A stretch of 64,000 nt of DNA, from assembly GCF_009617575.1 (NCBI RefSeq), contig NZ_WIXJ01000005.1:124001-188000 (forward strand). Direction: 5' to 3'. Shown piece by piece: positions 59,544 to 64,000 of the stretch. The stretch is from Rhodocyclus gracilis. GTDB taxonomy: Bacteria > Pseudomonadota > Gammaproteobacteria > Burkholderiales > Rhodocyclaceae. A program made the position numbers and the translations under genes. Position 1 is the first letter of the stretch. The number at the start of each line of letters is the position of its first letter. A model generated the notes under the pieces. That model searched no databases. It was not told the DNA's origin and saw only the letters and a program-made list of their open reading frames with translations.

Positions 59544-61403
59544 ATGTGTGGCATCGTTGCCGCGGTCGCTGACCGCAACGTCGTTTCCGTTCTGCTCGAA
59601 GGACTGCGCAAGCTCGAATACCGTGGCTACGATTCGGCCGGTCTGGCGCTCGTCTCTGTCGCCGGCCTGACGCGGCTGCGTTCCGTTGGCCGCGTCGCCG
59701 AGCTGTCCGCGCAGGCGGCACAGGTGGAGGCGGCCGGTACGAGCGGCATCGCGCACACGCGCTGGGCGACGCACGGTGCGCCCTGCGAGCGCAATGCTCA
59801 CCCGCACGTTTCCGGCGGTCTCGCCATCGTGCACAACGGCATCATCGAAAACCATGAAGCGCTGCGCAGCGAGCTGGGTGCGGCGGGCTACACTTTCATT
59901 TCCGATACCGACACCGAGGTCGTTGCGCACCTCATCGCGCATGAGCTGAAAACCGGCGCCGATCTTTTCGTGGCGGTGCGTTCCGCCATCGCCCGTCTGC
60001 AAGGGGCGTTCGCGCTGGCGGTGCTCGACGAGGCGCAGCCCGGTCGCGTCATCGTCGCGCGTGAGGGCGCTCCGCTGCTCCTCGGCATCTGCGACGCCGA
60101 TGATGCGGCGAACGCCGAGACGCCGCGTGGCACCTTCGCCGCTTCCGACGCGTCGGCCCTGCTGCAAGTGACGCGGCGCATGATCTGCCTCGAAAACGGC
60201 GATTGCGCCGAGCTTGCTCAGGACGGCTACCGTATTACGCGTGTCGACGGCACGCCGGTCGAACGCGCCGAGTTCGTTTCGCAACTGTCGGCCGACGCGA
60301 TTGAGTTGGGCGCGTATCAGCACTACATGCAGAAAGAGATTTTCGAGCAGCCGGCGGCTCTGTCGACGACACTCGAAATGCTCGGCGGTGCGCGCAGCGT
60401 GCAGCCGGGACTCTTCGGCGCGCAGTCCGAAGCCATTTTCGCCGAGGTCCGGCAGGTCCTGATCCTCGCCTGCGGCACCAGCTATCACGCCGGTCTTGTC
60501 GCCCGCTACTGGATCGAGGCATTGGCAGGGATTCCGTGCAACGTCGAGATCGCCAGCGAATACCGCTACCGCGCCTCCGTCGCCGATCCGGCGACGCTTG
60601 TCGTCGCGATCTCCCAGTCGGGCGAGACGGCTGATACGCTGGCCGCACTGCAACACGCGCGCGCACATGGTATGCCGCACACGCTGGCGATTTGCAACGC
60701 GCCCGAATCCTCGCTGGTGCGCGAAACCGCGCTGCGTTTCATCACCCGCGCCGGCCCGGAGATCGGCGTCGCGTCGACCAAGGCGTTCACGACGCAACTT
60801 GCCGCGCTCTACCTGCTGACGCTGACGCTCGCCAAACAGAATGGCCGCCTCGATGCCACGCGCGAAGCCAATGAACTGCAAGCCCTGCGCCACCTGCCCA
60901 TCGCCGTCGGTCGCGTTCTCGAACTGGAACCGGAGATTCGTGCCTGGGCCGAGCGTTTCGCCGACAGTCAGCACGCGCTCTTCCTCGGTCGCGGCCGGCA
61001 TTACCCCATTGCCCTCGAAGGCGCCTTGAAGCTCAAGGAAATTTCTTACATCCACGCCGAAGGCTATCCTGCCGGCGAGCTCAAGCACGGCCCCCTGGCG
61101 CTGGTCGATCACAACATGCCGGTCGTCGCCGTGGCGCCGAATGACGTCCTGCTGGAAAAGCTCAAATCCAACCTGCAGGAAGTCCGTGCGCGGGGCGGCG
61201 AGCTGTACGTCTTTGCCGATGCCGACAGCGAAATCACTGCCTCCGAAGGCGTGCACATCCTGCGCCTGCCCGAACATTACGGGCCGCTCTCGGCGCTGCT
61301 GCACGTTGTCCCCTTGCAACTCCTCGCGTATCACGTCGCTCTGGTGCGCGGCACCGACGTCGACAAGCCGCGCAATCTTGCGAAATCGGTGACGGTCGAA
61401 TAG
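59544..61403 (+). CDS. glmS: Glutamine-fructose-6-phosphate aminotransferase GlmS
   Basis: A 619-residue enzyme that makes glucosamine-6-phosphate. C2 is the glutaminase nucleophile (MCGIVA). An N-terminal amidotransferase is followed by two SIS sugar-isomerase domains with CGTSYHAG and STKAFTTQ. The C-terminal [11 protein letters not shown] tail is the highly conserved stretch whose DNA is recognised by Tn7 TnsD. A Tn7-like element lies 25 bases past the stop, leaving glmS intact. Confidence 0.98.
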
Positions 61404-61428
61404 TGGTTTCTGCGTATGCTGTGACCAT
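61404..61428 (+). other. Tn7-type attachment site (glmS-proximal side) with candidate 5-bp target duplication
   Basis: Exactly 25 bases separate the glmS stop from the TGTGGG transposon end, the classical Tn7 insertion distance. The five bases ACCAT (61424-61428) before the end are the expected target duplication; the second copy would lie beyond the window. Confidence 0.8.
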
Positions 61429-61438
61429 TGTGGGATCC

Positions 61439-61493
61439 AAATAAAGTTTCATCCGTTTAAATAAAGTATCATCTGTACAAATAAAGTTTCATC
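61439..61493 (+). repeat. Three direct repeats with 20-bp period, TnsB-binding-site type
   Basis: AAATAAAGTTTCATC (61439-61453), AAATAAAGTATCATC (61459-61473) and AAATAAAGTTTCATC (61479-61493) are spaced exactly 20 bases. The AATAAAGT core is shared with TnsB sites of Tn7 itself. Closely packed copies are the hallmark of the right end. Confidence 0.88.
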
Positions 61494-61496
61494 CTG

Positions 61497-61543
61497 AGCC
61501 AGCATCCGCTATCTTGAAGTCATCGATACAACGGGTGCTGGCT
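61497..61543. promoter_or_regulatory. Inverted repeat in the tnsA leader
   Basis: AGCCAGCATCC (61497-61507) is matched by GGGTGCTGGCT (61533-61543) with one mismatch that is a wobble pair in RNA. The right arm ends five bases before the tnsA ATG, where the ribosome site should be, so the structure could hold down tnsA translation or serve as an operator. Confidence 0.45.
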
Positions 61544-61548
61544 TTCTC

Positions 61549-62376
61549 ATGTCTGGAACATTCAAGGGCCTGACCCAGGCCCAGATCGACAGAAGGCTCA
61601 AGGAGGGCCGCGGCCAAGGCCAGGGACCGGACTACAAGCCGTTCATCTACACCAGGGATGTGTCCTCGCTGGGCCGTTCCCACCGGCTGCCCGGCAGCAA
61701 AACCCGACGCCTGCACCATCTTCTATCCGATCTTGAACTGGCCATCTTTCTGACCTTGGACCGGTCTCCCCATGTCACCGATATCCGTGAACAGTTTCCG
61801 ATGCGGATCGAAGATACGGTGCGCATCGCCGAGGAGTTCGGCCTTCCCCATGGTCGCTACCAGAGCACCCCGCAGGTTCTGAGCAGCGATTTCCTGGTGG
61901 ATTTCGATGACCCCCAGCGCCCGACCATCGCGATCCAGGCCAAGTACAGTGTCGACCTGCAGAAGCCTGAAGTCATTGAGAGGCTTGAGCTTGAAAGGCG
62001 CTACTGGCAGGAAAAAGGCATTCCCTGGGTCATCGTCACAGAACGTGAGGTATCCAGGGAGGCATTTGCCAATATCCAATGGCTCTATCCTGCCCATGCT
62101 GAAGACGACATCGCACAGGACGATCTCGCACACTACAAGCAGCAGTTTTTGCTTGAATTTCAGCGTCACCCTGATCGGAAGTTGACCGCTATTGCCCAAG
62201 GACTGGATACCTCCGGTCAGTTGGAGGCCGGTCAGGCGCTCTATTGGCTACGCCAGTTGTTGGCCCGGCACTATTTCCTTTTCGACCTTGACACCCCTTA
62301 CCGGGAGTTGAAGCCGAAAGATCTAGCTGCCAACCTTCATCAAATGCACCAGGAACTGAGCAGTGTTGCCCGTTAA
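61549..62376 (+). CDS. tnsA: TnsA endonuclease of a Tn7-like transposon
   Basis: A 275-residue restriction-enzyme-like nuclease that cuts the 5' ends of the element, enabling cut-and-paste movement. The catalytic residues fall at E63, D114, Q130 and K132, the same numbering known for Tn7 TnsA, in DLELAIF, SSDFLVDF and AIQAKYS. The C-terminal winged-helix region (about 170-270) contacts TnsB/TnsC in Tn7. It is the first gene of the element and overlaps tnsB. Confidence 0.95.
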   Translation: MSGTFKGLTQAQIDRRLKEGRGQGQGPDYKPFIYTRDVSSLGRSHRLPGSKTRRLHHLLSDLELAIFLTLDRSPHVTDIREQFPMRIEDTVRIAEEFGLPHGRYQSTPQVLSSDFLVDFDDPQRPTIAIQAKYSVDLQKPEVIERLELERRYWQEKGIPWVIVTEREVSREAFANIQWLYPAHAEDDIAQDDLAHYKQQFLLEFQRHPDRKLTAIAQGLDTSGQLEAGQALYWLRQLLARHYFLFDLDTPYRELKPKDLAANLHQMHQELSSVAR

Positions 62377-64000
62377 TCAGGTTTTCCGGATGGGGGAACT
62401 GCGAAAGCGGCTGCTCTGGTCCGGTACCGAGCAGGCAGTCTGGATCGATATCGATTTGGACACGGCGCTTCCCGAACCGATATCGGTTGCAGAGCTGGAG
62501 CGTCTGCTCATGGAGAGGGAACTAGAGAGCATTGCCGATCCCTTCGAGGAGATGGTCCTACGGGAGGCGGAGGAAGGTTCCCTTGATCAGCAGAAGCGTG
62601 ATGAAGCCTGGGCAATGCTGGCGGATTTTGTAGACGATCCCCTGCTTTTCGTGCGGCGCCCCAGAGGGCTCATTGTCAGAGGCATCATGGAACGCCATGG
62701 TGTTACCAATCAGACGGTGTACAGGTTACTGAGGCGCTACTGGCAGCGGGGCATGTGCAGGAACGCCCTCTTGCCGGACTATATCAACTCGGGCGCTCGG
62801 GGCAAGCGGCGAAAGCCGAACCAGGCCAAGCTGGGCAGGCCCAGGGTGGTGAGGGAGGGGCAAGGGAGCAATATCACGCCGGACATCGAGCGCATTTTTC
62901 GCCGGGTCATCGAGGAGCGTTTGCTCAAGGAAAAACATCCGTCCATTCCTGATGCCTACGCCTCCGGGCTGAACCTGCTCCGTGTCGTTCTACCGGAGTT
63001 GCCAACCACCGAACTGCCTACATTAGCGCAGTTCCGTTACTTCTATGGGCGCGAATATCACTTTACCGAAACCTTGCCGCGCAGGATGTCCGCGGTGGAT
63101 TTTGCCAAGGACTTCCGGCCGATCAGCAGCACATCGACGACCGAAACACTGGGGCCCGGATACCGCTACCAGATAGATGCCACCATCGCCGATATTTATC
63201 TGGTTTCAGAGCATGATCGTAGCCTTATAGTCGGCAGGCCTGTCGTTTACATGGTGATCGACGTGTTCAGCCGCATGGTCGTTGGTATGTACGTCGGATT
63301 CGAGGGGCCTTCCTGGGGCAGTGCCATGGTGGCATTGACCAACACAGTTGCCGACAAGGTCGAGTATTGCCGCCAGTATGGTGTAGAAATCGATGCTAGC
63401 GACTGGCCGGTCAAAGGCTTACCGGATGTGGTGCTAGCCGATAAGGGCGAACTGAACGGCACCAAGGTGGAAGCATTTTCTCAAGCCTTCGGCGTCCGCA
63501 TCGAGAACGCACCGGCCAGACGCGGAGATGCCAAAGGCATCGTTGAGCGCTATTTCCGGACGGTGCAGGAACGCTTCAAACCCTACGCCAGCGGTGTGGT
63601 CGAAGACACCACAAGCCGGAAGCGGGGTGGCCACGACTACCGGCTTGATGCCAGTCTGGCCTTGCCCGAGTTCACGCGGATCATCATCGCCGGCATTCTC
63701 TTCCACAACAACTTCCACACCTTGAGCAAATACGACAGGGCCGCGGGGATGCCGGGCGATCTGCCGGCCATCCCGGTCATGCTGTGGAACTGGGGCTTGG
63801 CTAACCTGACCGGTCGGTTGCGTACTGCACCCGAGGAACTGGTGCGTATCAATCTCTTGCCCCATGAGTCGGCGACGGTTTCGGAGCTGGGAATCAGGCT
63901 GTTCGGCTGCTTCTACACCTGCCAGGAAGCGATCAAGGAGGGTTGGTTTCACCGAGGCCAAGGGCGCCGGCCGACAGGGGTAACGGTCGCATACGATCCG
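62363..64000 (+). CDS. tnsB: TnsB transposase of a Tn7-like transposon, cut by window edge
   Basis: A DDE-family transposase open to the window end (546 codons from GTG 62363). With that start the catalytic triad is D272 (YQIDATIADIYL), D360 (VLADKGELNG) and E395 (AKGIVERYF), one less than the Tn7 TnsB numbers D273, D361 and E396, which supports the GTG over TTG 62366 or ATG 62390. N-terminal helix-turn-helix segments (about 110-150) should read the 20-bp repeats. It overlaps tnsA by 14 bases. Confidence 0.94.
   Translation, partial: MLPVNQVFRMGELRKRLLWSGTEQAVWIDIDLDTALPEPISVAELERLLMERELESIADPFEEMVLREAEEGSLDQQKRDEAWAMLADFVDDPLLFVRRPRGLIVRGIMERHGVTNQTVYRLLRRYWQRGMCRNALLPDYINSGARGKRRKPNQAKLGRPRVVREGQGSNITPDIERIFRRVIEERLLKEKHPSIPDAYASGLNLLRVVLPELPTTELPTLAQFRYFYGREYHFTETLPRRMSAVDFAKDFRPISSTSTTETLGPGYRYQIDATIADIYLVSEHDRSLIVGRPVVYMVIDVFSRMVVGMYVGFEGPSWGSAMVALTNTVADKVEYCRQYGVEIDASDWPVKGLPDVVLADKGELNGTKVEAFSQAFGVRIENAPARRGDAKGIVERYFRTVQERFKPYASGVVEDTTSRKRGGHDYRLDASLALPEFTRIIIAGILFHNNFHTLSKYDRAAGMPGDLPAIPVMLWNWGLANLTGRLRTAPEELVRINLLPHESATVSELGIRLFGCFYTCQEAIKEGWFHRGQGRRPTGVTVAYDP

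Follow-up and report, generated by a model that had tools for sequence, protein, structure and literature searches.

A canonical tnsABCDE-type Tn7 element past glmS in Rhodocyclus gracilis, with a predicted restriction-modification cargo and an insertion sequence in tnsC

Introduction

In Rhodocyclus gracilis, a TGTGGG terminus followed by tnsA- and tnsB-like frames lies a few bases downstream of glmS, which raises the questions of what inserted there, how much of it is present, what it carries, and whether it can still move. The window, i.e., the whole stretch of DNA that was analyzed, comprises 64,000 nucleotides (C23:124001-188000) of a genome of 27 contigs and 2.93 Mb. Contig C23 terminates at 189116, 1,116 bp past the window, within an insertion sequence (IS).

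A sequence-only reading of this DNA had placed a Tn7-like transposon 25 bp downstream of glmS, and the placement holds, since the ends, two copies of ACCAT, and five tns genes agree with it. We give a probability of about 0.96 to the reading that this is a canonical tnsABCDE Tn7 element that used the TnsD pathway to enter attTn7 25 bp past glmS, bears a predicted restriction-modification cargo, and later received an IS in tnsC. Window positions 61429-64000 form the glmS-proximal portion of the element; the window boundary truncates it inside tnsB, and the remainder lies beyond this boundary, in part on another contig of the assembly, C5.

Results

We looked into the positioning of the element relative to glmS. 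The gene occupies 59544..61403 on the + strand (TIGR01135 glmS, 814 bits), with its TAG stop at 61401-61403, and exactly 25 bp of host spacer (61404..61428) separate the stop from the TGTGGG at 61429. The sequence-only reading had the spacing and the boundary region right; the range that it gave, from 61404, includes these 25 bp, and the element itself starts at 61429. The spacer ends in ACCAT (61424-61428), which constitutes the target-site duplication, the second ACCAT adjoining the distal end on C5. Since 23 bp separate the middle base of the duplication from the final base of glmS, the geometry of the target site fits attTn7 in the numbering of PMC2918618, where the available part of the text gives the TnsD site as +23 to +58. 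The 3' end of glmS is the predicted attTn7/TnsD binding site, and the final ten residues of GlmS are identical in all of the aligned loci from relatives (29/29).

The glmS-proximal end (61429..61494, + strand) is composed of the TGTGGG terminus and three AAATAAAGT(T/A)TCATC repeats, which are putative TnsB sites. These AAATAAAGTNTCATC repeats start at 61439, 61459, and 61479, hence with the spacing of exactly 20 bp that had been noticed earlier, and all three are within 66 bp of the terminus. The repeat pattern occurs three times in the window versus a mean of 0.00 over 100 shuffles of the window. By Tn7 convention, the end that carries tnsA and adjoins glmS is the right end.

We then analyzed the sequences of the proteins encoded next to this end. 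tnsA (61549..62376, + strand) is an open frame for a protein of 275 aa with Pfam domains PF08721 and PF08722, which matches Tn7 TnsA (PDB 1f1z) with an E value of 7.7e-59. tnsB (62363..64000 in the window, + strand) runs 450 bp past the window, to L002:3450; its full product of 695 aa contains Mu-transpos_C and matches Tn7 TnsB (PDB 7pik) over residues 4-691 (E=3.8e-184). The catalytic residues of Tn7 TnsA are numbered E63, D114, and K132, and those of the protein studied here align with them at identical numbers. In Tn7 TnsB, the acidic residues are numbered 273, 361, and 396, and the corresponding residues here (272, 360, and 395) align with this triad at numbers one lower. The earlier assertion of Tn7 numbering in both proteins holds exactly for TnsA, whereas the numbers in TnsB differ by one, with the alignment of the residues preserved.

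tnsC begins at L002:3443 and extends over 151 codons to just past the Walker A motif (GCSGCGKT, identified by eye), where the IS starts. On C5, the reverse strand presents, in this order, the other end of the IS, the remainder of tnsC, tnsD, tnsE, four cargo genes, and the distal end. The remaining frame of tnsC on C5 has 386 codons, and this 3' part matches the solved Tn7 TnsC with an E value of 2.6e-86. Two observations link C5 to C23. When placed on the unbroken tnsC of relatives, the two gene pieces abut at one and the same codon, with a 3-bp TGG overlap, and the ACCAT duplications at both ends of the element match. The join would span the unassembled interior of the IS. A larger insertion between the two IS ends is compatible with the assembly, but the single 3-bp duplication speaks against it. 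C9, which shares the IS end, was rejected as the continuation of C23, because there the IS end adjoins other genes, which look by eye like polysaccharide genes, and not tnsC. With C23 and C5 joined, the element measures ∼14.7 kb excluding the IS (3,468 + 11,280 bp minus the duplicated bases), and all five tns genes, the distal end, and the matching 5-bp duplication are recovered.

The interruption of tnsC is a point beyond the sequence-only reading. TnsC is 94 to 95% identical to that of an unbroken relative, yet the gene is cut by the IS directly after the Walker A motif. In comparison to unbroken tnsC from close relatives (e.g., L015), the left piece extends through the third base of TGG and the right piece begins at the first, which leaves a 3-bp TGG duplication on either side of the IS; an exact duplication requires one extra base beyond the symmetric ends at the right end of the IS. 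Incomplete frames at the two ends of the IS gave matches to HTH_Tnp_1 and rve_3. The IS3 model of NCBIfam came top for the right-end fragment and second, behind an IS66 accessory model, for the left-end fragment. The IS probably belongs to the IS3 family, a label that is likely rather than firm because all NCBIfam scores of these fragments (51 and 44 residues) fall below the cut-offs. The same IS end is found at seven contig edges (C9, C11, both edges of C20, C21, and both edges of C23), with 98 to 100% identity and flanks that are all different. Such a multicopy and nearly uniform IS suggests a recent spread in the genome. An eighth copy, partial and 93% identical, is located near the end of C22.

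No close second tnsC was found in the genome, where the sole other match (E=4e-4, 25% identity) is the TniB of an unrelated element on contig C10. With tnsC split by the IS and no other close tnsC found in the genome, autonomous transposition has probably been lost, although a different element might provide TnsC. The element could still be mobile if two separate chains (one of 151 aa that contains Walker A, the other of 386 aa) together did the work of TnsC or if a foreign TnsC stepped in, and we consider this improbable. The 3' piece is open and an ATG was created directly at the IS junction, but the ATP site would have to be divided between two chains; as for a foreign TnsC, the second Tn7-like core on C10 has its own TniB, but this protein is a very weak match and from another lineage.

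The sequence-only reading had directed attention to the neighboring sequence for tnsC, tnsD/tniQ, and a distal inverted end with a second ACCAT. Besides the split tnsC, C5 provided both tnsD and tnsE as well as that end. TnsD is full length (500 aa), contains both the TniQ and the TnsD domains, and matches the solved Tn7 protein with an E value of 2.4e-46. TnsE has 536 aa, with an E value of 2.5e-12 for the solved Tn7 protein and of 6.3e-44 for Pfam TnsE_C. The genome harbors two TniQ-family genes, and the one on C5 was assigned to the glmS-adjacent element; the TniQ on C10 was rejected as its TnsD, being part of a separate core.

The distal end on C5 terminates in CCCACA followed by ACCAT, equal to the five bases on the glmS side, and therefore has the same TGTGGG terminus as the proximal end, together with AAATAAAGTTTCATC repeats. 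Read inward from the outside, the distal end starts with TGTGGGATTGAAATAAAGTTTCATCC and the proximal end with TGTGGGATCCAAATAAAGTTTCATCC. Three repeats are distributed across 216 bp at the distal end, and one of these deviates at 4 of its 15 positions, so that the element has inverted ends with several TnsB-type repeats, i.e., putative sites, at each. The spread of the proximal and distal repeats resembles the lengths of Tn7R (90 bp) and Tn7L (166 bp) given in the available text of PMC2918618.

The locus thus displays a TnsA-TnsB pair, a (split) TnsC, TnsD and TnsE in an operon, and a 5-bp target-site duplication, at an insertion ∼25 bp past glmS with the tnsA end beside glmS, as in tnsABCDE-type Tn7. 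A degenerate Tn7 remnant, with one end and some tns genes but neither distal end nor cargo, is very unlikely: tnsC is split and the contig stops in the IS 1.1 kb past the window, but tnsD, tnsE, four cargo genes, the distal end, and a perfect second ACCAT are all present, and the genes are open.

We also compared the locus with relatives in which the site might be empty. glmS was matched in 58 other genomes, and 30 glmS 3' flanks were compared, our own and those of 29 loci from relatives, with a length of ∼1.5 kb in most loci, two being shorter (465 and 769 bp). The flank of the window was the only one with a match to TnsA or TnsB (1/30). The two genomes of the same genus (G001 and G002) have neither the repeats nor a TnsA match in the glmS 3' flank. 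The 3 kb of host DNA past the distal end gave no significant match in the 30 glmS loci (best E=0.075), which reach at most ∼1.5 kb past glmS, and synteny therefore adds no extra support. As the empty site gave no direct match, the claim of an insertion rests on the ends and the duplication. Other genomes of the family contain AATAAAG repeats just past the glmS stop, two or three in L089, L092, and L094 and one each in L078 and L082; the ∼1.5-kb glmS flank of these five matched neither the TnsA nor the TnsB query. These repeats are possibly ends or remnants of other Tn7-like elements.

The cargo consists of one operon of four consecutive genes on C5, all with open frames. They encode a cytosine-5 (Dcm-type) methylase (PF00145), a GHKL ATPase of the MORC/paraMORC-like type (PF13589), a Z1 protein (PF10593), and a PD-(D/E)XK protein (DUF4420, PF14390). 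This row of GHKL ATPase, Z1/helicase, methylase, and restriction-fold protein genes is that of MORC/paraMORC-type restriction-modification neighborhoods. The best PADLOC models were a type II methylase for the methylase and a type II helicase for the Z1 protein; the GHKL ATPase had a weak MzaB match and the PD-(D/E)XK protein had none. We rejected the name MZA system, because the NCBIfam scores are far under the cut-offs (21.4 bits versus 850 for MzaB, 134.9 versus 1500 for MzaC, and 19.4 versus 420 for MzaD). Neither MzaA nor MzaE had an NCBIfam match among the four cargo proteins, and the weak PADLOC matches to MzaB and MzaC scored below those of the type II methylase and helicase models.

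Based on family membership, we predict that the cargo is a restriction-modification defense cassette, which would methylate host DNA and restrict unmethylated incoming DNA. Defense was among the cargo types that had been envisaged from the window. According to the available parts of the literature, MORC/paraMORC ATPases occur in restriction-modification neighborhoods with helicases, methylases, and restriction-fold nucleases (PMC2292703), a putative defense system groups Z1, PD-(D/E)XK, and cytosine methylase genes in association with MORC (PMC9523054), and restriction-modification modules are the commonest and most widespread innate immune cargo of Tn7-like transposons (PMC8649781). Like the systems in the available texts of PMC2292703 and PMC9523054, the cargo combines a GHKL ATPase, a Z1 protein, a PD-(D/E)XK protein, and a cytosine methylase, and unlike them, it is limited to these four genes, with neither an AIPR protein nor any additional gene. 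An RNA-guided Tn7-like transposon at glmS, whether CRISPR-associated (CAST) or of another type, would share the Tn7-like core, CASTs being related elements (PMC10293859, available text), but the large frames between the ends are tnsABCDE and the four cargo genes, family scans of which returned no cas family, and TnsD is full length with both of its domains, so we give this reading next to no credence.

Among the 297 sampled genomes of the family, 7 were found to have the GHKL gene, our own included. The four-gene set is complete in each of the other family GHKL loci that were retrieved (4/4), two weak matches (L104 and L105) having been excluded. In two of these four, the cassette is directly downstream of gyrB (G022, L107 6720-18312; G128, L110 3421-12531). 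The cassette proteins of G022 are 73 to 86% identical to those studied here. Past the G022 cassette comes another type of Tn7-like core, which comprises a TnsA-like N-terminal domain, a TnsB-like protein whose rve match is subthreshold, a TniB-like ATPase, and a TniQ-like frame. A repeat search in L107 yielded no convincing terminal repeats for this element, so the G022 cassette is only candidate cargo. It is doubtful, if conceivable, that unrelated Tn7-type cores have repeatedly taken up this cassette and that, through the IS in tnsC, its vehicle became a fixed defense locus in R. gracilis. The GHKL ATPase had no match in phage records, and plasmid records gave partial matches to the Z1 protein (<60% identity, 49 records, none covering 80%). 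Among 39 tnsB-relative loci, with DNA reaching at most ∼5.5 kb past tnsE, there was no match to the Z1, GHKL, or PD-(D/E)XK protein at E <= 1e-8 and a single match to the methylase (29%, in L030).

Discussion

The preferred reading, a canonical Tn7 element that entered attTn7, implies the following sequence of events. TnsD would have bound the 3' end of glmS, TnsC would then have been recruited, and cutting and joining of the element by TnsA and TnsB would have given rise to the 5-bp ACCAT duplication, while TnsE would offer an alternative route to conjugating plasmids. TnsD targeting of the glmS 3' end and joining by TnsA and TnsB with TnsC are described in the available texts of PMC2918618 and PMC10293859. 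Later, an IS, probably of the IS3 family, would have entered tnsC directly after the Walker A motif. Separation of Walker A from the rest of the ATPase would block transposition, and because the IS splits this regulator, the element can most likely no longer leave its site. One plausible route is the delivery of a defense cassette to a safe chromosomal site, where the IS would subsequently have locked it.

The closest known elements come from enterobacteria. GlmS ends <160 bp before tnsA in 24 of the 39 tnsB-relative loci; in the remaining 15, either the stretch is too short or GlmS is missing from it or lies further away. The DNA of window positions 61404-64000 was matched with at least 80% coverage in 34 of 5,426 E. 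coli genomes (37 records, 36 at 90 to 95% identity and 1 at 80 to 90%). Among the eight E. coli matches listed, identity is ∼92% and the match starts at 61427-61428, no more than two bases from where the element is predicted to end. One E. coli copy is at glmS with clpK and heat-resistance genes. The heat-resistance elements of E. coli and Klebsiella (NZ_CP123310.1 and NZ_CP026186.1) have the same tnsABCDE order and end repeats as the element studied here, and the E. coli chromosome copy also shares the glmS site. Compared to the Klebsiella plasmid copy, identity is 94% for TnsA, 93% for TnsB, 95% for the 3' part of TnsC, and 83% for both TnsD and TnsE. The differences lie in the cargo, which comprises clpK, hsp20-GI, yfdX, and hdeD-GI in these two records instead of restriction-modification genes, and in tnsC, annotated there as one frame and split here. 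In a further close relative, on the E. coli plasmid NZ_CP061750.1 (L116 17016-18495), tnsC is annotated as two overlapping frames and may also be broken; this copy has heat-resistance-type cargo, like the E. coli copy at glmS.

With canonical Tn7, the element shares five proteins that match the solved ones, the 5-bp duplication, the glmS site, and the TnsA catalytic residue numbers. It is more distant from canonical Tn7 than from the heat-resistance element, and the split of tnsC by an IS is a further difference; the cargo of canonical Tn7 also differs from the one described here. The kind of element, its site, and the class of cargo are all already described, and none of the records examined, within a limited literature search, showed this restriction-modification cargo combined with an IS-split tnsC in this host family. 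tnsE was found in only 1 of the 297 sampled genomes of the host family, our own, so the element extends the Tn7 lineage, of which the enterobacterial copies examined have heat-resistance cargo, to a family otherwise without a tnsE match among the sampled genomes.

The genome contains a second, unrelated Tn7-like core on C10 (L061 3331-7806), which encodes a TnsA-like protein of 217 aa, a TniA-like protein of 628 aa, a TniB of 320 aa, and a TniQ of 341 aa. A protein with an autotransporter domain is encoded on the same contig, and a second copy of the TniQ C terminus, 84% identical over 112 residues, is located at C10 76-411.
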